Below, piece by piece: positions 26,036 to 37,389 of a stretch of DNA of 37,526 bases (within the stretch, counting starts at the first letter, position 1; each line of letters begins with the position of its first letter). Origin of the DNA: a bacterium. Lineage in GTDB: Bacteria > UBP15 > UBA6099. The position numbers and the translations under genes are program-made. The notes under the pieces were generated by a model, which was not told where the DNA came from, made no database searches, and saw only the letters and a program-made list of their open reading frames with translations. The stretch is taken from positions 1-37,526 of the forward strand of contig JAKQPS010000075.1 in the NCBI GenBank assembly GCA_029564595.1, written 5' to 3'.

Positions 26036-26108
26036 GGGCCGTTAACTCAGGTGGTAGAGTACCGGACTTTTAATCCGGGTGTCCCGGGTTCGAACCCCGG
26101 ACGGCTCA
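26036..26108 (+). tRNA. tRNA-Lys (UUU)
   Basis: 73 nt including the discriminator A. Acceptor GGGCCGT pairs with ACGGCTC (one G-U). Anticodon loop CTTTTAA in a CCGGA/TCCGG stem gives anticodon TTT. T-arm has GGGTTCGAACCCC. CCA is not encoded. Confidence 0.96.
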
Positions 26109-26116
26109 TCAAAGCC

Positions 26117-26188
26117 GCCCTCATCGTCTAGTGGTTAGGACACCGCTCTTTCAAGGCGGCGGCAGGGGTTCGAGTCCCCTTGGGGGCA
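26117..26188 (+). tRNA. tRNA-Glu (UUC)
   Basis: 72 nt including the discriminator A. Acceptor GCCCTCA pairs with TGGGGGC (one U-G). Anticodon loop CTTTCAA gives TTC. T-arm AGGGGTTCGAGTCCCCT. CCA not encoded. Confidence 0.95.
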
Positions 26189-26197
26189 ACAAAACAA

Positions 26198-26269
26198 GGG
26201 CGGGTAGCTCAGCGGGAGAGCGCTTGCTTCACACGCAAGAGGCCGTGGGTTCGAAACCCACTCCGCCCA
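26198..26269 (+). tRNA. tRNA-Val (CAC)
   Basis: 72 nt including the discriminator A. Acceptor GGGCGGG pairs with TCCGCCC. Anticodon stem CTTGC/GCAAG holds the loop TTCACAC, anticodon CAC. T-arm GTGGGTTCGAAACCCAC. Confidence 0.95.
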
Positions 26270-26285
26270 AGCAAGCCCGATGCAA

Positions 26286-26358
26286 GGAGCCGTGGTGTAG
26301 CGGTTAACATGCCGGCCTGTCAAGCCGGAGATCGCGAGTTCAATCCTCGTCGGCTCCG
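26286..26358 (+). tRNA. tRNA-Asp (GUC)
   Basis: 73 nt including the discriminator G, as usual for Asp. Acceptor GGAGCCG pairs perfectly with CGGCTCC. Anticodon loop CTGTCAA in a CCGGC/GCCGG stem gives GTC. Confidence 0.95.
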
Positions 26359-26396
26359 TAGTTGAAAAACTGAAATCTAGAGAGGGTGTGTAAAAG

Positions 26397-26582
26397 TTGC
26401 CGGGAGTAAAAGTTCATGAAGGCGAATCGATAGAAAGCGCTCTCAGACGCTTCAGAAGCGTTTGCCGCGACGCCAGAATTCAGGAAGACTACAAACGCTC
26501 GCAGGTTTACGAAAAACCAAGCGACAAGCGCCGCCGCAAAATCAAAGAACGCGTGCGCAAAAGCAGAAAAAAGAAATTCTGA
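26397..26582 (+). CDS. rpsU: 30S ribosomal protein S21
   Basis: 61 residues: MPGVKVHEGESIESALRRFRSVCRDARI at the N-terminus, the S21 hallmark, then a strongly basic helix ending RRRKIKERVRKSRKKKF. The start is a TTG at 26397, fixed by the conserved MPGVKV; the AGAGGGTG purine run upstream is a little distant. It lies between tRNA-Asp and tRNA-Phe and is presumably part of the same transcript, so tRNA processing would release its mRNA. Confidence 0.94.
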   Translation: MPGVKVHEGESIESALRRFRSVCRDARIQEDYKRSQVYEKPSDKRRRKIKERVRKSRKKKF

Positions 26583-26703
26583 CGCCCCGCCCCCGCAGGC
26601 ACTTGCCCGCTCCCCTGCCACACTCGGAGACCCTCAACGGCCTCCCCGCAGGAGAACACGCAGCCGCAGCCAGCGTCAGGCGCAACGTCAACACAAAGCA
26701 GGA

Positions 26704-26776
26704 GCCGAGATAGCTCAGTCGGTAGAGCGAGGGACTGAAAATCCCTGCGTCGGCGGTTCAAATCCGTCTCTCGGCA
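26704..26776 (+). tRNA. tRNA-Phe (GAA)
   Basis: 73 nt including the discriminator A. Acceptor GCCGAGA pairs perfectly with TCTCGGC. Anticodon loop CTGAAAA in an AGGGA/TCCCT stem gives GAA. It follows rpsU after 121 nt of C-rich spacer. Confidence 0.96.
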
Positions 26777-26950
26777 AAACCCCGGTCCGCGCGACACGCA
26801 AACCGGGCACAACCGAACACACAATGCGACGGCCGGCCGCTTCCCCCGCCCCAACCACCTACCCCCCACCGGCCCGAACACACCGAAGCGCCACCGGACA
26901 CCACGCCGCGCAACACACCCACAAGCGCGCATCCGGGAACAAAACAAAAC

Positions 26951-27023
26951 GGGGCTATAGCGCAGTTGGGAGCGCGTCTGACTGGCAGTCAGAAGGTCAT
27001 GGGTTCGAATCCCATTAGCTCCA
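26951..27023 (+). tRNA. tRNA-Ala (GGC)
   Basis: 73 nt including the discriminator A. Acceptor GGGGCTA pairs with TAGCTCC, with the G3-U70 pair that identifies alanine tRNA. Anticodon loop CTGGCAG in TCTGA/TCAGA gives GGC. The 174-nt spacer before it is rich in C and A and holds no gene. Confidence 0.96.
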
Positions 27024-27032
27024 TCGACAAAT

Positions 27033-27061
27033 AACCGTCTAACAAGGCGGTTTTTTGTTTT
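27033..27061 (+). terminator. Terminator of the tRNA operon
   Basis: AACCGTC (27033-27039) pairs with GGCGGTT (27046-27052), one T-G pair, followed by TTTTTTGTTTT. It marks the end of the G+C-rich core sequence. Confidence 0.8.
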
Positions 27062-27347: not shown

Positions 27348-30191
27348 TCATTGGTATTGGGTTGTTTTGTTGCGGTCCCGCATTTCTATATTCATCCCGT
27401 ATGGCAAATTACTAACATAGTCTCCACCCCCGGCTTCGTATGATGGACGGCGGAAATAGCTGGCTGGGATATCAGCAAGCTTATCAAAGGGACAAATTGC
27501 TACCTTCAAATTTATATAATGAATTGATTCCGGGCACAGATTTCGAATAAATTCGAAATCTGCGTCTTGATCATTTTTGTACAAAACAAGAATACATTCT
27601 TGTCCTTTGGAGCATATCCGCAAAGCATCGGATGGAGAGTGAGCAAGCCTTGCCGGCGCGCGTAAATCTAAGTCAATGGCGTCAAATACTAAAAATGTGT
27701 TTGTAATAAAAAGAGCGCTTTTAGGATATAAGCCTGCTACCGACACCGTGGCTCTAAGCAAGTTGTCGACATATCCTTTGTCCCTAATCTCAGACATATG
27801 AGAGAATGGGACAAGGGCAATAAATATAAACATAGAGACTCTGAATGTATTCTTTGCAATATTACCGAAAAAACACTTTTCTATGAAATATATGCCGAGC
27901 GCGGTCAAAACTATAAGTGGCGCGGCAAAGTCCATCGTGTGCCGCACCGATTCGGACGATCTCAGATATTGGCCCGACCCAGCCTGAAGATGACAAATAA
28001 AATAGATAACTATCCATAATACGAAAAACACAACTGTCTTTCTGGAAATGACCGAGTGTCTTTTTAACAGCAACAAAATAATCGACACGCTGCAAATGAC
28101 GCTGAAAGCAATTGGAAGATATTTATTTGACACAAAAAAACGAAGATTATCGACAAAATGATTTCCGATGGCAATTGTCTCGATATTCCTGTTGTAATCG
28201 CCGATTGTAGCGCTGATATAAATAAGGATTAGACAGGATACAAAACTGAACATGAAGATAAAGGCCGGAACAATATCGGATCGGGTTCTTACAACAGAGG
28301 CGACTATTTTTGAAAATATATTATGCGTACTATTGTCGTGTTCAGCAACGATGTGTCTGCTGTTATAACTCATATAACAATACAGAATAAATATCGCGAA
28401 CGCTATGTTGTGAATGCGGATAAAAACAAAGAAAGAAAGTGAAATAAAAAACAAAAACGATGAAATAAAACTGCGATTTGTTCTGCACTGCGCAAGCGCA
28501 TAAACGCAAACAAGCATAAATATAAGATTAGGATTTTCTGCGGCGTGACTTCCTGAAAAACGAAGGCAAACAGGGTAGTTAGCTAAAAGAAAAGCGGCAA
28601 CCAAAGCGGCGCCATTATTTTTAATAAAGGATTTAACGACAAGAAACATAATAGCGCATGATACAGTGGACAAGAAGACCGAGAAATAAAATCCGACTTG
28701 AGAATGAAGCCCGAAGAGCAGATATGCGGGGTAATATGCCATCATGGCCCCGGGAAATATATTGTATATGTGTGCGCCGTGTATTCCGGCAATCCACAAT
28801 TCGATAATCCTCAACCTGTCATATTCGTCGCCTAAAACCAGATGCGCATGAGGCGAGACATAAATCCTTAACAAGCTGGCATATATGATAATTAATAATA
28901 GCAATAAAAAGGTTTTCATCCCGCTTGCTGATATTTCTCTCATGATTAGAGGAAGATGCAGAATAAAAGCAATAACACAAGATAATAAAAGAAACGAAAG
29001 AAGAAAGAATATTGATGCGCAGAAAGGGTATTCCTCCGTTCGAGCGTATTTATCGTCTGAAATATCAGATTGCCTGATTCTCTTATCCGACAAGCCTGAA
29101 TCCCAATGCGAAGGCTTGGAATGAAAGCCTAAAAAAGGAACCATTGCGGCGGCGGCTCTCCTATGAGCTTCCTCATTAAACCGCCAATTAATGGAGTTAA
29201 CTCTGAACTCTCGAGGATTGCGATTAAATAAAACGGGGGCAATATCTAGGCTTGGGATTCCATTGGCGGCGAGAAACGCCGACATCTTTTCATGAATATC
29301 ATCATATTCATAATGGTCGCGCTGCCCTTCCAATAATGGAATATATACAAAGGAAAAGTCCACGCCCGCAACCGATGCCTCGTCTCGCATTGTTTTGATT
29401 GCGGAAAATAAATACTCCATTCCATCTTTGTTTGCTTTGGAATTTATTTTCTTAATCCACCGCTTTGAATCGTTGCGATCTTGAAATAATGTCCACGCGC
29501 CTTTTAACAGTTGAGCTTCTGGATACCCGTTTTTTATCATGAAACGATTCGGCTGATCCCAATGCACACTGTTTTCAAAGGCAAGCGGCGGTTCGAGTGA
29601 AAAGAACGGGGTGTCTGCAGGAGACCAGACATACACAATCGATCTTGGGTTCATTCTCACAAGTTCTAAATATTTTTCAAAAATAAGTGAAAAAGTGTTT
29701 GTTTCAAGAGTAAAATCTATTGTCTTAACTGGTTCACCGTTGCTCTCAACTGCTATCTTTTTAATGACTTCTTGAAATTGAAAACTCTTGGGAACGCCTT
29801 TTCCAGAAGCGACGGAACCGCCCAAAAATATCACGCTGTCATTGATTTGTTCGCTGGTATATGTGACGCTGCTTCTTTCCGACCAGCATTGCACGAAATT
29901 CATGGTATCCATGCCAGCGCCGTTGAGCGGGACAATATCTGTAAACGTGTTTAATGCTTCTAAATATGAGAAATCGGCGAAAGGGGTGTTCCAATTTTCG
30001 TAACATACAACATGGAAGTCATTCTGCGCTTTATCTTTTGCCGCCATTTCGAGAGTTTGGCCAGTTGATTGCAAACCAGAGAGGATGCCTTTAACAGAAA
30101 AATGAAGAAGGGCGATTGAAACAGCCAAGGCAAGGACTAGTTCGATAACACACAAAATACGCCGCGGTTGATTTGAAGAGGCATTTGTCAC
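27348..30191 (-). CDS. SGNH-like domain fused to a GT-C (ArnT/PMT-like) membrane protein
   Basis: 947 residues; GTG start at 30191 with AAGGAT upstream, inside the end of the preceding gene. One transmembrane helix (about 12-31) is followed by a ~360-residue soluble domain expected outside the membrane: HVVCYENW (60-67), DSVIFLGGSVASGKG (118-131; Ser126 as the block-I-type serine), SIVYVWSPADTP and NEEAHRRAAAAM. The canonical D-x-x-H dyad of SGNH hydrolases is not seen (NSINWRFNEEAH). From about 390 on there are 10 or more hydrophobic helices. The first outer loop has LVLGDEYDRLRIIELW, like the acidic DE site of GT-C glycosyltransferases that use polyprenyl-phosphate sugars, then YYPAYLLFG. 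The first half is paralogous to the upstream gene. Likely modifies a surface glycan or lipid; inference. Confidence 0.75.
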   Translation of the reverse strand: MTNASSNQPRRILCVIELVLALAVSIALLHFSVKGILSGLQSTGQTLEMAAKDKAQNDFHVVCYENWNTPFADFSYLEALNTFTDIVPLNGAGMDTMNFVQCWSERSSVTYTSEQINDSVIFLGGSVASGKGVPKSFQFQEVIKKIAVESNGEPVKTIDFTLETNTFSLIFEKYLELVRMNPRSIVYVWSPADTPFFSLEPPLAFENSVHWDQPNRFMIKNGYPEAQLLKGAWTLFQDRNDSKRWIKKINSKANKDGMEYLFSAIKTMRDEASVAGVDFSFVYIPLLEGQRDHYEYDDIHEKMSAFLAANGIPSLDIAPVLFNRNPREFRVNSINWRFNEEAHRRAAAAMVPFLGFHSKPSHWDSGLSDKRIRQSDISDDKYARTEEYPFCASIFFLLSFLLLSCVIAFILHLPLIMREISASGMKTFLLLLLIIIYASLLRIYVSPHAHLVLGDEYDRLRIIELWIAGIHGAHIYNIFPGAMMAYYPAYLLFGLHSQVGFYFSVFLSTVSCAIMFLVVKSFIKNNGAALVAAFLLANYPVCLRFSGSHAAENPNLIFMLVCVYALAQCRTNRSFISSFLFFISLSFFVFIRIHNIAFAIFILYCYMSYNSRHIVAEHDNSTHNIFSKIVASVVRTRSDIVPAFIFMFSFVSCLILIYISATIGDYNRNIETIAIGNHFVDNLRFFVSNKYLPIAFSVICSVSIILLLLKRHSVISRKTVVFFVLWIVIYFICHLQAGSGQYLRSSESVRHTMDFAAPLIVLTALGIYFIEKCFFGNIAKNTFRVSMFIFIALVPFSHMSEIRDKGYVDNLLRATVSVAGLYPKSALFITNTFLVFDAIDLDLRAPARLAHSPSDALRICSKGQECILVLYKNDQDADFEFIRNLCPESIHYINLKVAICPFDKLADIPASYFRRPSYEAGGGDYVSNLPYGMNIEMRDRNKTTQYQ

Positions 30192-30197
30192 AATTAT

Positions 30198-33100
30198 TTA
30201 TCCTTTGTCGTATTCATTTGATTGAAAATCCGTAGGCGATGAGATTTCCATCGTATTGCTGCCTGACGAATCGCAAAACTTGATAGGCCGTTTAATCCGA
30301 GTTTTTAATGAATAGAAATAAAGCAGAGCGACAATCAGATATACAACCAAGCATATTATGCTTATTGCGACTCCGATTGCCAGTCCGTCAGGTCTAAACA
30401 CGAACAAGATTTCGTGAGTTCCCGCCTCGACCTGAACCGCCTTGAAAGAGTGATTAACTCTAAGAACAGGCAATATCCGTCCATTCTGATAAGCTTTCCA
30501 TCCACGGATGAAATTGTCGGTGTAGATTAGCAGCGCAGGACCATCCGCGCTTACCTTTGCCCATGCTTTGTTGTATCCAACCGAATAATCAAGAACTCTC
30601 GCTTCGCTGTAATCAATACGCTTTTTATCGGATATCATGCCGTGTGCGGGAGACAGAATGGCTGTTGACAATGGATCGAAATCCCGTCGCGCCATGATTT
30701 TCAGCGTGTCATCATCTGAATTCAGAACCAAAGCCTGTTTTGCAAAGAACATACGTGGAAGCGCAGCGGGGTTTTTATAGACGAATACCCCTCCGCTTTG
30801 TTCTTGAAGCTCGTAAGGCGCAGGCAACTGCCTGCTTGATAAAACATGCGTCGCTCCGAGCATGTTGAGAATCGGAGAAGCAAGGGATTTGTGTTTCCGA
30901 AGTTCCCGAATTCGTTCCCCGCCAAGTCCGACGTTGGCGACGCCCGGTTCAATCAGATTCACAACATCGTTATAATTTTTCGGCATCAAGCTGTCATATC
31001 CTTGAATATCCGGCACAGGCGCGAGAAGCGCCAAATTGGGCGGCAATATGCTGGAATATGTTTCAACATTGGCTTCAGGGTCGAACCTTACTATCCTTGA
31101 TTCCTCAGACTTCAGATTTTCAAGATAAGAAATCAAGGCTGGCTTGCTCTCAGTATCGACGCGTATTTGGGTGGTATACCGCCCTGCGATAATCAACAAG
31201 TCCACAGAAAGCGCGGCTATCAGCAATAACGCGAAAATGTTAACACCTCGGATGGAATCTTTTCGGCTAAGTTTGAACATTCCGACAATCGCGAAAAAAA
31301 CGCCTGAGAAACACAACAAGCGCGACACTGGAATCAGTAAATAGCTGAGCGGAGCCGCCGCGTATAAAAAAGAGCCGGACATGAAACCTATCCCGCCCGC
31401 CGCCGCCATTAGACCAAAACGTCTTCGTTTTTTGCCATTCTCCGTTTCATCGTTAGCGTTTGGAAAAAATATGGCGTCGAACATAAAAGCGGCTGAAAAG
31501 CAACAGCAGATCACAAAAACACACAACAATTCCGTAAGCTGAAAGCTCTTTGCTCCGGGAACAAGAAGATAAATCGGATAATAAAAGATTTTTTGGCTTA
31601 AAAGAGCCGACACAATTGCGGTCCAGACAAAGAATCTTGGGTGTTGACGCTTTTTTATAAATAAGGCGCCCATCGCAAACAATAACGTGGCGATTCCGAA
31701 ATAAAGCGCGATATTGTATTTAGTGAAGAACGGAAAACTACTCATACTAAAATTGTTCTTTAACGCTATGTTGGGAAGCAACAATATTTTAAACACCCAT
31801 AAAGGCGTTGGGGGAATCTGATCATAAGGCACGGCCGCCCTTGTGCTCTGAGATAAATATTCGATGACGGACAGTATCTGAACGGAGCTTATCGCCATTC
31901 CCGCGACGGCCATGATAATAAAATGACCGACGCAAGCAGCAATTCCCCTGATCCGTTGTTCTGATTCAGATAAGTTAATAGCTCGATTAACTGAGAAGGC
32001 AAACGCCAGTATCAGGCAATATTGACCGATTTGAAGATTGCCGGCCATCAACATCAAGGCTATTGGCAACGAACACAACAAAGAAACAGACGCTCTTTTT
32101 TTCTCGACGACAATATCTGAACACCAGAGAACGAGCGGCCACCACGCCAGAGTCGCGAGACAGTTGATTTCATTGGTCGCTCTAATCATTCTTCCGCTGA
32201 ACATGAACGCCAAGGCTCCGAAAACAGCGCTTTCATTTTTTAGCCCGAACCGCTTTAAGAACAGAAAACCGCCGAACGCGGCAATAATTAGATGAATGAT
32301 TGTGTAATACCCGAACGCGTTTTCAACTGGCAGTGCTCGAAACAACAAGCTAAACGGATAAAAAAGCGCGGATTGATTGTTGCCTACTAAGTAAGAGCCG
32401 GAAAGCGTGTAAGGATCCCAGAAAGGCGCAGCGCCATTTCGTTCCGCTGCCGCGATATATTTGCGCCACGCATACATCTGGTCGATACTGTCGTTGTCGT
32501 ATGGATTTTGGATAGTGTCAAACTGCGGGCCTGCCTCCGGCGCCCAAGGGTGATATATATTCAATATGTCCAGTGGAAGCATGTGGTGTCCGAAAAACAG
32601 CGATTTCCATCCGAAAACAACCGCTAATAAAACAAAAAATAGCGCTACGACCGCGGCTGCTCTGATTTGCGGTTTTTTCTGCTCATCCGGGTTGTGCTCT
32701 TTTCCTCCGAACCGTAGCGCCGCGAAAAGAAAAACAGCCAAGCAAAGCGCCAGCGCAAAAACCACCGTATAACGAACCCATTGCGAAAAACCGTCGCTCA
32801 AAACCATGCTGGCGTCTTTTTTTTCGCTTTCCTTTTTTTTAACTTGCGGGGGCTGCTCAAGGTCGTAAGCGACAATCCTGAGATTCTCCATCATGGCTGC
32901 GGCGATTCTGCGGTGGGTTTCGCTGTTGGGACGTCTGTTGTAATCGTGAAGCCGCATTTCTTCTGCGGGCCGCGACAAAATTCGCTCGGAGAGGTCTTCC
33001 GTTTCTATCCCCTCTGCCTTCAATAACCGCTTCACATCGTCGTGGATGCCTTGAAACACATAGTCGCCTCGGCCTCCGACAAGTAGCGGAAACAAAAAGG

Positions 33101-34004
33101 TTTTGAAACTGCCGCCCTGAGTCTCCGTTTCCTTCTTCATCGTCGCCACATGTGAAACGAGGGATTCCCTCCAGCCGCAGTTGTCGTCGCTGTGTGCCTT
33201 TAGAATCCAATTGATTGCCGCTTCTGTGTCTTTTCGGCTTTGATAATATCCTTTGATATAACTTGCGAAAGGGTAAATCGTCACATTTTTGAACCTGTTC
33301 CTACGGTCGAAAATATTGGCCACCGCATTTTTCGATTCAAATTGAAAGAGATCGCTTGTAGGAGTATTTGCCGGTGTCCACACATAGACAACCTGCGCAG
33401 GTTTGTGTTTGATAACGCTGCTGAGCACTTGATGCTGTTCGATGAGACTTTCATTCATTGATCCGAGATTTATCACATTTCGAAAACCGGCTTTGGCGAA
33501 GCCTTCTGATTGTTCCCGGATGATTTCAGAAAAAGAGGATCTTTTAGATATCCCTTCGCCCAAAACTACGGAACCTCCGACAAATAAAAGCGAATCCTTG
33601 ATTTGTTCTGGATTTGGAGCCTCGTCGAGCCGTTTGGTTACGCACCGGATCGGATTGATTGTGTCAATGCTGTTTATGAGTTTAATGCTTTTGAAATGGC
33701 TGCCGATATCGCCCCATTCAAATTCAGCGTTTGGATTTGCCCAATTCTCATGACAGGTGACAATGTGTGTTCTCTCGCTGTCATCCAAGGCGAGCGCCCG
33801 TATAGTCGCGCCTTTAGAAGCGTGTTTATTGTTGAGATTTCCTATGTATCCCAAAGCAATCGCGACGATTCCGAAAAGTGCGGAAATGAACAAAAACAGA
33901 TGCAACTTCGTTGAGCCTCTGTCTTTATTTTTGTCCGCGCCAAAGGAGTTCTCGATTAGAGAAATCTTTCCGTCCATGCAAGCTCGTTGGTTTCGATTTG
34001 TCAA
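30198..34004 (-). CDS. SGNH-like domain fused to a YfhO-like membrane protein
   Basis: 1268 residues from a TTG at 34004, chosen because GGAG lies eight nt upstream and it gives MTNRNQR, parallel to MTNASSN of its paralogue; GTG at 34049 and ATG at 33977 are alternatives. One N-terminal helix (about 33-55), then a soluble domain with HIVTCHENW, DSLLFVGGSVVLGEG (Ser145), VVYVWTPANTP and NSETHRRIAAAM, homologous to the downstream protein. The D-x-x-H dyad reads D-Y-N-R-R. From about 400 the sequence is YfhO-like: FFGHHMLPLDILNIYHPW, NDSIDQMYAWRKY, APFWDPYTLSGSY, many helices, then the C-terminal GWKAYQNGRILPVLRVNHSFKAVQVEAGTH beta domain. YfhO proteins take part in teichoic-acid glycosylation. 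Only 6 nt separate it from the next gene. Confidence 0.75.
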   Translation of the reverse strand: MTNRNQRACMDGKISLIENSFGADKNKDRGSTKLHLFLFISALFGIVAIALGYIGNLNNKHASKGATIRALALDDSERTHIVTCHENWANPNAEFEWGDIGSHFKSIKLINSIDTINPIRCVTKRLDEAPNPEQIKDSLLFVGGSVVLGEGISKRSSFSEIIREQSEGFAKAGFRNVINLGSMNESLIEQHQVLSSVIKHKPAQVVYVWTPANTPTSDLFQFESKNAVANIFDRRNRFKNVTIYPFASYIKGYYQSRKDTEAAINWILKAHSDDNCGWRESLVSHVATMKKETETQGGSFKTFLFPLLVGGRGDYVFQGIHDDVKRLLKAEGIETEDLSERILSRPAEEMRLHDYNRRPNSETHRRIAAAMMENLRIVAYDLEQPPQVKKKESEKKDASMVLSDGFSQWVRYTVVFALALCLAVFLFAALRFGGKEHNPDEQKKPQIRAAAVVALFFVLLAVVFGWKSLFFGHHMLPLDILNIYHPWAPEAGPQFDTIQNPYDNDSIDQMYAWRKYIAAAERNGAAPFWDPYTLSGSYLVGNNQSALFYPFSLLFRALPVENAFGYYTIIHLIIAAFGGFLFLKRFGLKNESAVFGALAFMFSGRMIRATNEINCLATLAWWPLVLWCSDIVVEKKRASVSLLCSLPIALMLMAGNLQIGQYCLILAFAFSVNRAINLSESEQRIRGIAACVGHFIIMAVAGMAISSVQILSVIEYLSQSTRAAVPYDQIPPTPLWVFKILLLPNIALKNNFSMSSFPFFTKYNIALYFGIATLLFAMGALFIKKRQHPRFFVWTAIVSALLSQKIFYYPIYLLVPGAKSFQLTELLCVFVICCCFSAAFMFDAIFFPNANDETENGKKRRRFGLMAAAGGIGFMSGSFLYAAAPLSYLLIPVSRLLCFSGVFFAIVGMFKLSRKDSIRGVNIFALLLIAALSVDLLIIAGRYTTQIRVDTESKPALISYLENLKSEESRIVRFDPEANVETYSSILPPNLALLAPVPDIQGYDSLMPKNYNDVVNLIEPGVANVGLGGERIRELRKHKSLASPILNMLGATHVLSSRQLPAPYELQEQSGGVFVYKNPAALPRMFFAKQALVLNSDDDTLKIMARRDFDPLSTAILSPAHGMISDKKRIDYSEARVLDYSVGYNKAWAKVSADGPALLIYTDNFIRGWKAYQNGRILPVLRVNHSFKAVQVEAGTHEILFVFRPDGLAIGVAISIICLVVYLIVALLYFYSLKTRIKRPIKFCDSSGSNTMEISSPTDFQSNEYDKG

Positions 34005-34067
34005 TATCTCCACTCCATCGGAGTTGAAATTAGAAATAAACAAAGGCACAGTGTATTCTATGCAATT

Positions 34068-35281
34068 TTACAATCTCTGGTCGGCGCTGTCTAACAGGCG
34101 GCTAATGGCGGCTATGTATTTTCGGAATCCGGATTCGGAGAATCCTGTCCTGTTGGGAACATGAAACAAACGCTTCGAAACCGGCTTGCATCGCTCCGCG
34201 CCTAGCCCCGGCGTTAATTCGGGGCAGTCCCTCATGTAGTTGATTTTTATATCAATGCCGTTTTTGAAGAATATGCGCGACAATTCTCCGGCGTCTTTAC
34301 AGATGCCGGCGGTCATGAAGCCGTTCGGGCAGCCTTCCTCCGCCTGATACATGCCCATGCCGGAGCAGTCTATGGCCTTCTGGATTTCGAGGAATTGTCG
34401 TTTTAAAACAGCCAGCGTGTTACTAAGGCGATCCATGTGCGCTAGGCCAACCCGCGACTGCAAACCGGCGAGCTGGAAAGGCGATTTCGGAGCTGCTCCT
34501 TCTTTGCGTTCTTCAACAAAGTCTCGCATCCCTAAAGCGCGGGACACGGCCAATGCTGGATATAGGAAAGCAGAGCCACCCCAACGACTTGTCGCCAAAG
34601 CCGATAAATAGCTTTTCAAAGCTCTTTTCGAGACATCAATTTTAGACAGAGAAGCGAGGCTCTCTCTAGACTCGGAAAGCCGTTGTCGAAGTTCATCGTC
34701 ATTGGTGACTGCCATGCCACCGCCGAAAGTGTTCACGATTTTGGATGTTTCATAGCTAAATATGGCAGCGCGACCAAAGCCTCCGACATGAATGCCCCTG
34801 TAACGGGTTCCAAGAGAATGCGCCGAGTCCTCAATTAGGTCAAGACCATGGTCGCGACAAAACGATAGAAGTTCGTCCACAGGTCCGGGAAATCCGAAAT
34901 AATGCGCCATACCAACGCTCTTGCGTTGCAAGGCAAGGACGCCTTCGTTTTTTCGAGATCTGGAGCCAAAGATTTTTCTAGCAGGGGAATCCACGACACA
35001 TTCAAACCTCGCTTTAATACTGTCATTGGCATGGCTGGGTAATTTAGAGAGGGCATCAAAACACAAGCATCAGGCGGATAATTAAGCGAATCCAACAACG
35101 CGCAAAAAGCGGCTCTGCCTGAAGAAAAAGCTATTGCATGTTTGACGCCGCAAAACGACGCAATGCGCTTTTCAAAATCATCCACCATGCCATCGTATTC
35201 TTCTCCAAGCGCGCATTTCAATAGAATGCGCGTTTGTCCTTTGCAGTGTCTCGTCTGGCTTCGCGGAACAATTGGAATCAT
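34068..35281 (-). pseudogene. Frameshifted DegT/DnrJ/EryC1-family aminotransferase
   Basis: Two frames together make one DegT-type PLP enzyme of about 400 residues. The first, from the ATG at 35281, gives GEEYDGMVDDFEKRIASFCGVKHAIAFSSGRAAFCALLDSL up to NARALV. The second continues at MAHYFGFPG, then LDLIEDSAHSLG, FSYETSKIVNTFGGGMAVTND (with the PLP lysine) to the stop at 34068. The frames join between about 34905 and 34925; a single missing base in GTTGGTATGG restores ALV-MAHYFGFP. All other key segments look sound, so it is either a recent mutation or a sequencing error. Such enzymes make amino sugars for surface glycans. It leads the minus-strand operon with the two SGNH/GT-C fusions. Confidence 0.75.
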
Positions 35282-35366: not shown

Positions 35367-36896
35367 ATGAAAATCGGATTGGTTTTCAACCCGTTCAGCT
35401 ACAAGCTCCACGAAGAGAACATTAGGATAGTTCAGAAGTATTTCGGACTATTTCCGCCTTTGAGCCTTGCATGGGTAGCCGCTATAGCAGAGAGCGCTGG
35501 GCATGAGGTTGTTATAATCGACGCGAGAACCCTCGAATTGACAATAGATGAAACCACAAATATTTTGAAAAAGTTCAAGCCAGACCTGATCGGGTTTATG
35601 ATGACTACGTACATGTTCCGCGAGACCATGGAATGGGCGGCCGCTCTCAAGGCCGCCGTAAAAGCGCCGGTTGTAATCGGTGGATACAATCTCCGTGTTT
35701 ATCCTCGCGAATCGCTCATGAACGATGTCGTGGATTACGGTTGCCTCAACCACGCCCTTGTAATGTTTCCAGCTTTCCTCCGAGAGTTGGAGAGAGAGCG
35801 CAACTTTGAATCCGTGCCGGGACTGATATACAAACACAATGGCGATATCATCGTAAACGAAGCCAGTCCTGAAGAAGAGGACTTTAACGCTTATCCAAAC
35901 CCGGCCAGACACCTTCTGCCTAACGAGCTCTATGCGGAGTTTCCCACTGAACGCAAAAATTTCACAGTTATGATCACAAGTCTGGGATGTCCTATGCGCT
36001 GTGTTTTCTGCGAAGCAGGCGGGACAAAATATTCTCCCCGCAGCCCAGTCATCGTTGTTGACGAGATCGAGCAATGCGTCCGCGATTTCGGCATAAGGGA
36101 AATTGACATCTTTGATTACGATTTTACATTTCAAAGAGGACGAGTTGAGTCTATTTGCGATGGGATTATCGGACGCGGACTCGATGTCACATGGGCCTGC
36201 CGATCCCGAATAGACCACGTCGACGCCATGTTGCTTGAGAAGATGCGCAAAGCAGGTTGCCGCCGCATTTATTATGGCATTGAGAGCAGCAATCAAGATA
36301 TTCTTGCCGCCATGCATAAACAAATAAGTGTAGCCCAAGTAATGGACACTATTGATTTGACACGAAGAACCGGCATTAAAACCCTCGGCTTTTTCCTCGC
36401 AGGCGTGCCGGGAGAAACCAGAAAAAGCCTTGAACAAACTGTCAAGTTCGCAAAGCGACTGAAATTGGATTACGCCCAGTTTTCCAAGCTAACAGCCAAG
36501 CCTTGGACAACACTTTGGAAGGATATGGTTCAGAACACAGGGAAGGATTACTGGAAAGACTACGTTCTTGGGGTTGAACAAGAAAAGCAACTGCCACGCG
36601 CATGGACATCTCTATCCAACGAAGAGATTGACCGCTTAACTAAGCGGGCTTATCTGAAATTCTATGGTTCGCCTCGTTTTCTGTGGCGCGCCACAAAAAG
36701 CGTTGCGTCGTTTACTGAGTTCAAAAGGAAATTTCTTGCGCTGATTGACATGATATTCAAACAGGAGAACAAATCTGAAACATGGACGCTCAAACATGCG
36801 ACATTCAAAACATACAATGAGAATCGAACGCGAAGAATAAAGTATTTTCTTAATCATTTATCATCGTTGAGCGCCGCTAAAAAAGATGGAGAATAA
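35367..36896 (+). CDS. B12-binding-domain radical SAM protein
   Basis: 509 residues from the ATG at 35367 (MKIGLVFNPFSYKLHEEN); the ribosome site is weak (AAGGGA, rather distant). N-terminal Rossmann-like B12-binding-type domain (1-~145: FPPLSLAWVAAIAESAGHEVVIIDA, PDLIGFMMTTYM, APVVIGGYNLRVYPRE), without a clear D-x-H-x-x-G motif, so any cobalamin would bind base-off without a histidine ligand. Radical SAM core with GCPMRCVFCEAGG (Cys208, 212, 215), DIFDYDFTFQRGRVESIC, RRIYYGIESSNQDILAAM and FFLAGVPGET. Relatives include methylases and ring-forming enzymes such as BchE and HpnP. The substrate is probably a lipid or glycan precursor of this island (inference). Confidence 0.88.
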   Translation: MKIGLVFNPFSYKLHEENIRIVQKYFGLFPPLSLAWVAAIAESAGHEVVIIDARTLELTIDETTNILKKFKPDLIGFMMTTYMFRETMEWAAALKAAVKAPVVIGGYNLRVYPRESLMNDVVDYGCLNHALVMFPAFLRELERERNFESVPGLIYKHNGDIIVNEASPEEEDFNAYPNPARHLLPNELYAEFPTERKNFTVMITSLGCPMRCVFCEAGGTKYSPRSPVIVVDEIEQCVRDFGIREIDIFDYDFTFQRGRVESICDGIIGRGLDVTWACRSRIDHVDAMLLEKMRKAGCRRIYYGIESSNQDILAAMHKQISVAQVMDTIDLTRRTGIKTLGFFLAGVPGETRKSLEQTVKFAKRLKLDYAQFSKLTAKPWTTLWKDMVQNTGKDYWKDYVLGVEQEKQLPRAWTSLSNEEIDRLTKRAYLKFYGSPRFLWRATKSVASFTEFKRKFLALIDMIFKQENKSETWTLKHATFKTYNENRTRRIKYFLNHLSSLSAAKKDGE

Positions 36897-37019: not shown

Positions 37020-37389
37020 ATAAAAATACTTTTTACTCATCTCGGTCGCGAGAATCTCGGCATCGAATACCTTTCATCCATGCTGAAACTTGCCGGGCAC
37101 GAAACTTATTCCCCCATTGATATAGGTCTATTTTGGACAAAACTATAATATTTACCATTCTCCGCGGCTTGAGCGACTGTTTTCGCTGAAAGACTCTGTG
37201 GTCAGTCGGTTCAAAAGCGTGGCTCCCGACCTTGTCTGCATGTCGGCATACTCCGGCTCTCTGAAATGAAGTTTCATGCTGGCGGATGAGTTCAAATGTA
37301 TCAGAGACGTCCCGATAGTCGTCGGAGGCATCCATATTACCCTGTCGCCGGAATCGGCCATGTTTTGTCAATCTATAGACTATTGGTAA
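37020..37389 (+). pseudogene. Wreck of a second B12-binding radical SAM gene
   Basis: Starting at an ATA where ATG is expected (37020), translation gives KILFTHLGRENLGIEYLSSM then LKLAGHETYSPIDIGLF and a stop at 37146. The frame one base on continues as NIYHSPRLERLFSLKDSVV, SRFKSVAPDLVCMSAYSGSLK, a TGA (37267) where Trp is usual, SFMLADEFKCIRDVPIVVGGIHITLSPESAM and TAA (37387). This is the B12-binding half of a radical SAM protein with a lost start, one frameshift and in-frame stops; the iron-sulfur core is missing. Confidence 0.75.

Follow-up and report, generated by a model that had tools for sequence, protein, structure and literature searches.

The window analysed here is the whole of contig C93 (37,526 bp), taken from a genome of 4.4 Mb in 203 contigs that is 97% complete. 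It carries two adjacent genes, P0001 and P0002, whose products join a similar N-terminal domain to two different membrane parts (Table 1). The genes are co-directional, with a gap of 6 bp between the ORFs, and P0002 starts either at a GTG at 34049 or at an alternative ATG at 33977. An earlier note on this DNA had placed the pair at 27348-34004; both ORFs were confirmed and only the end at 34004 was slightly off.

Table 1. Positions of the twin genes, their shared domain and the neighbouring features in the window.
Feature	Position	Strand	Description
tRNA-Ala(GGC)	26951-27023	plus	
P0001	27348-30191	minus	947 aa, ORF uninterrupted; TM helix, SGNH-like domain (about aa 60-360), return TM helix, likely GT-C (PMT/ArnT-like) core, soluble C-terminus
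SGNH-like domain of P0001	29118-30014	minus	Profile match E 2.6e-133; AlphaFold2 model and Foldseek
P0002	30198-34049	minus	1283 aa, ORF uninterrupted; TM helix, SGNH-like domain (about aa 95-395), return TM helix, YfhO membrane glycosyltransferase
SGNH-like domain of P0002	32871-33764	minus	Profile match E 9.6e-133
DegT/DnrJ/EryC1/StrS aminotransferase gene, split	34068-35281	minus	ORFs 34835-35281 and 34068-35066 match consecutive parts of PF01041
B12-binding radical SAM gene, intact	35367-36896	plus	Divergent; PF04055 and PF02310
Second radical SAM gene, truncated pseudogene	37020-37383	plus	tblastn with the G004 and G005 genes

The N-terminal domains of the twins align over about 300 aa with 104 identities in 315 positions (33%, E 1e-45), which at the level of sequence is far beyond chance. 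The four motifs by which the earlier note had recognised a homologous extracytoplasmic domain are all present in both proteins: CYENW/CHENW, GGSVASGKG/GGSVVLGEG, VYVWSPADTP/VYVWTPANTP and NEEAHRRAAAAM/NSETHRRIAAAM. Neither twin domain had a meaningful match in Pfam. A third copy, encoded in the same genome on contig C147 as a stand-alone protein of 531 aa, matched the GDSL lipase models PF13472 and PF00657 with E-values of 1e-6 and 1.5e-4, slightly below cut-off. An AlphaFold2 model of the domain, built from four sequences (pLDDT 68.7), gave 23 Foldseek matches in the PDB at E <= 1e-3, and nearly all of these were SGNH/GDSL proteins, with carbohydrate esterases on top. The TM-scores, normalised to query length, were modest (0.31-0.41), as is expected because the model has large low-confidence stretches. 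The predicted structure and the GDSL-matching paralog in the same genome both indicate that the shared domain is of the SGNH fold (three-layer alpha/beta/alpha), in agreement with the earlier note, which had proposed an SGNH-like domain and suggested structure prediction as the check.

The catalytic residues were compared in five members of this group, the stand-alone proteins of C147, G001 and G005 and the two twins. Block I reads GDS in C147, GDA in G001, GDS in G005 and GGS in both P0001 and P0002, and Block V reads, in the same order, ADRHPN, VNRHPN, ANHHPN, INWRFN and YNRRPN. The Ser nucleophile of Block I is thereby kept in both twins, and the His of Block V, retained in the stand-alone proteins, is Arg in both. 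The Asp of the DxxH motif is missing in all five members, its position being occupied by Asn in the twins; C147 has an Asp one position closer to the His, and a Ser-His dyad is possible from the sequences of C147 and G005. The Gly of Block II and the Asn of Block III expected for an oxyanion hole were not both found in the twins: Block II reads IDFTLETNT, which has no Gly, and INLGSMNES, and Block III reads VWSPADTP and VWTPANTP, with Asn missing at the expected place and another Asn nearby in P0002. Since GGS in place of GDS also occurs in several other long SGNH-like proteins, this change alone says little. Three of the five members have each lost an essential residue, the twins in one way and G001 in another, with the remainder of the domain preserved, and the degenerate catalytic apparatus (GGS, His replaced by Arg, and one stand-alone protein without the Ser) therefore points to a pseudo-hydrolase module. 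The earlier observation that the block-I Ser is kept and the D-x-x-H dyad is gone holds for both twins. The GDA of the G001 ortholog (L022:10033-11637) is a natural loss of the nucleophile by replacement of Ser with Ala.

The membrane parts of the twins differ. That of P0002 matches PF09586 (YfhO) in Pfam with 67 bits against a cut-off of 28.5 (E 1.6e-18), as the earlier note had supposed. P0001 has no match to a curated Pfam family, including PF02366 and PF13231, but its core shares 26% identity (E 3.6e-48) with an unfused multi-TM GT-C-like protein of the congener G002, which itself reaches PMT_2 at E 0.0032, below the cut-off. The first outer loop predicted for P0001 contains a DEYDR motif, which is conserved in the G002 homolog, and hhalign of a profile of three GT-C proteins from the phylum against the P0001 core gave E 3.3e-5 and a probability of 72%. 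The structure model of the GT-C half had a pLDDT of 40 and was not used for a fold search, and a PDB profile search with this half returned nothing useful. Taken together, the sequence comparisons make it likely that the P0001 core is a PMT/ArnT-like GT-C enzyme. Support for the earlier ArnT/PMT label comes from the G002 homology, the hhalign match and the DEYDR motif, and no curated family confirms it; the broader claim of two different membrane glycosyltransferase types is supported, with weaker evidence for the label of P0001 than for that of P0002. Neither twin matched an AT3 or MBOAT membrane domain in Pfam, nor any of the defence-system models. In both twins a simple hydropathy scan places one TM helix on each side of the SGNH domain, and the first TM helix of the GT-C core comes shortly after the second of these. 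If the N-terminus is inside, the SGNH domain is predicted to lie outside, together with the first, acidic loop of the core.

No second fused pair was found in two genome-contig scans, seven genomes of the phylum, 386 genomes, viral contigs and plasmids, and stand-alone relatives were the only form that recurred in these searches. The earlier note had made its proposal depend on an SGNH fold and on recurrence of the pair; the first was borne out by prediction, while none of the other genomes searched contained both fused genes together. Within one order, the stand-alone SGNH gene of three genomes (G000, G001 and G005) adjoins genes for a PMT-type GT-C enzyme and an A24-prepilin-peptidase-like protein (L004:9729-14078, L022:10033-14386 and L023:6599-10966); two of the three come from the public MAG contigs JAKQBV010000197.1 and JAJRTR010000038.1. 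Several radical SAM genes flank this triple, which could be a locus for the modification of pilin or surface proteins. Outside the order only distant SGNH-like matches were obtained from the 386 genomes, one of them, in G193, adjoining a likely PMT_2-type gene. Unfused relatives of the membrane halves are present in congeners. The idea that the stand-alone SGNH protein is a remnant of a fusion, based on C-terminal homology to P0001 (hhalign E 1.8e-4), was rejected since shuffled sequences scored equally high.

Among six YfhO matches with long open frames none was fused to an SGNH domain: one carried PA14 and three ILEI, and two gave a longest ORF apparently in the wrong frame. The PA14 domain is N-terminal (L052) and the ILEI domains are internal (L053, L054 and L057), all in unrelated genomes. 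Other long SGNH-like proteins were TPR fusions, a multi-TM protein with PA14 between TM helices and a terminal SGNH-like domain (L083:2384-4501), and a second multi-TM protein, which matches no Pfam membrane family and has an SGNH-like match at its C-terminus (L085:2413-4923).

GT-C enzymes of such types take their sugars from polyprenyl-phosphate carriers and transfer them on the outer side of the membrane (PMC8035078), and both twins are probably membrane enzymes that attach sugars to the cell surface. In the following scheme the topology, the GT-C chemistry (from the protein families), the docking role and the shared acceptor are inferences. The N-terminal TM-SGNH-TM cassette would hold the pseudo-SGNH domain outside the inner membrane, near the active site of the transferase, and the GT-C core would most likely pass a sugar from a polyprenyl-phosphate carrier to an envelope polymer or glycan. 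Lacking the Ser-His pair, the pseudo-SGNH domain would most likely bind or position the acceptor glycan, a role also proposed for other extracytoplasmic modules that are fused to GT-C enzymes. As the same module is found on both enzymes, one may speculate that P0001 and P0002 each add a different sugar to one acceptor or to related ones. That the domain is an esterase-derived docking module, placed on two transferases whose acceptor may be shared, is a reading to which we give an even chance. The fuller version, in which a dead SGNH esterase became a glycan-recognition module and a single TM-SGNH-TM cassette was prefixed to two classes of GT-C enzyme acting on the same acceptor, is put forward tentatively and is the less likely of the two. 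A precedent exists in large GT-C enzymes with carbohydrate-binding domains, and extra outer domains or partner proteins have been suggested in review to be responsible for acceptor choice in GT-C enzymes (PMC8035078). The stand-alone homologs immediately next to GT-C genes in three genomes and the PA14 or ILEI domains on other YfhO proteins also speak for the docking module. Against the docking module it must be noted that the fused pair comes from one MAG only and that its neighbours are decaying, so that the twins could themselves be on the way out, although both twin frames are fully open.

The GC content of the twins is 41% and 46%, whereas five other genes on the contig have 51-65%; the locus of the stand-alone SGNH gene also has a lower GC content (48%), so low GC by itself is no proof of transfer. 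Up to window position 27056, 33 bp past the tRNA-Ala gene, the congener G003 matches with 96% identity, and it has different genes thereafter. This tRNA gene is the last of six clustered at 26036-27023. A search for direct repeats at the edges of the island gave no convincing attachment site. The simplest reading is that the twins sit in an insertion next to a tRNA gene that is specific to this lineage. The DegT gene, co-directional with P0002 and 18 bp upstream of it, has a frameshift near 34912-34920, either genuine or produced by the assembly. Of the second radical SAM gene only about 120 of 502 aa are left, with a frameshift near 37133 and an internal stop. The island is partly decaying, and it carries a new domain combination.

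The twins might also belong to a recently acquired island en route to loss, in which case the changed SGNH residues would be early, functionless decay. Two broken genes of this island, the frameshifted DegT gene and the truncated radical SAM pseudogene, speak for this, as do the absence of the island from the corresponding site in G003 and of the pair from a second genome. However, the reading frames of the twins are open over 2,230 codons, and the fold motifs are retained at 33% mutual identity, which indicates long divergence. The same His-to-Arg change is moreover common to both twins and points to one older event. We regard decay as unlikely.

Less probable again is that the SGNH domain is still catalytic through a non-canonical site, as an acyl esterase or acyltransferase acting on a glycan built by the GT-C core, in a manner comparable to the AT3-SGNH fusions and MBOAT-SGNH pairs by which surface polymers are acylated (PMC12148441). 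The retained block-I Ser is compatible with such activity, and according to parts of a review some SGNH families work with changed oxyanion residues, with a DxH motif or with a Ser-His dyad that lacks Asp; yet the altered sites described in those parts retain both Ser and His (PMC9487903), whereas both twins have Arg for His and Asn at the Asp position, and one stand-alone homolog lacks the Ser. With the His that should pair with the nucleophile gone, and no AT3 or MBOAT gene observed next to the twins, a role in acyl transfer is unlikely.

The earlier note had joined the DegT gene, the radical SAM gene and the twins into one candidate system that could make an unusual modified sugar or acyl group and attach it, and had suggested testing co-occurrence. 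The start of the intact radical SAM gene lies near 35367 by homology, where a 77% identical ortholog from G004 begins to align, while the program-made ORF starts at 35142. Orthologs are found at four other places (G004, G005, G006 and contig C199 of the same genome), none of them beside an SGNH-GT-C gene; the second radical SAM gene adjoins the first in G004 and G005 and is close by on C199. All seven genomes of the phylum have 22 to 39 matches each to one B12 radical SAM query, a large expansion that makes chance adjacency to the twins likely. In G004 the surroundings of the ortholog include a DegT fragment, a GT2 gene and two GT-C-like genes, which suggests a possible loose link with glycan genes, but the SGNH domain is absent there and the GT-C genes have no detectable similarity to the twins. 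Beside the twins, up to the contig end at 37526, no cytoplasmic-side GT-A lipid-sugar synthase or flippase was noticed. Despite the close, co-directional placement of DegT and the G004 arrangement, the proposal that DegT makes an amino sugar which the B12 radical SAM enzyme (acting on sugar or lipid) modifies and the twins transfer to the envelope is not supported and is the least probable of all, given the split DegT gene and the radical SAM orthologs away from SGNH-GT-C genes.

The fuller version of the docking module, if real, would be a way of aiming membrane glycosyltransferases that is not described in the literature searched. In that literature there was also no description of an SGNH domain combined with a GT-C enzyme, in keeping with the earlier remark that the pair had no known description. 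With a pseudo-hydrolase common to both kinds of GT-C enzyme, acceptor choice could be tested cleanly, and such a domain would add a case of the SGNH fold being used for binding. The general weight of the proposal is limited by the fused pair being known from one genome only.

Several known systems resemble the twins in part. The YfhO proteins of the CsbB-GtcA-YfhO transmembrane glycosylation systems (PMC8035078, PMC5836110) correspond to the PF09586 part of P0002, which is above cut-off, but P0002 has the added N-terminal TM-SGNH-TM cassette. With the PMT/ArnT-like GT-C enzymes (PF02366, PF13231) P0001 shares a multi-TM core, the DEYDR first outer loop and distant homology to such proteins of the phylum, while it falls below all curated cut-offs and again carries the N-terminal cassette. 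Large YfhO proteins with an added non-membrane domain are represented by the PA14 and ILEI fusions, in which the added domains are of unrelated fold and ILEI is internal rather than N-terminal. The likeness to SGNH/GDSL hydrolases (PF13472, PF00657) lies in the predicted fold, the alignable blocks and the family match of the stand-alone paralog; in the twins, His has become Arg, GDS has become GGS, and the Asp of DxxH is missing. In OatA, OafB and PatA-PatB, as examples of AT3-SGNH fusions and MBOAT-SGNH pairs, an extracytoplasmic SGNH domain likewise serves a multi-TM transferase, but the membrane part is a glycosyltransferase (probably so in P0001) rather than an acyltransferase and the SGNH catalytic residues of the twins are lost. 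For binding by this fold there is CtCE2 of CtCel5C-CE2, an SGNH esterase domain that provides cellulose binding to the cellulase it is fused with and so acts as a carbohydrate-binding module (PMC2661963). CtCE2 retains Ser-His and esterase activity and its partner is a cellulase, and with its catalytic residues kept it is an imperfect precedent for the twin domain. By these comparisons the twins are GT-C enzymes with an accessory outer domain, which is a known kind of protein (likely so for the GT-C part of P0001), and it is the combination of domains that is new.
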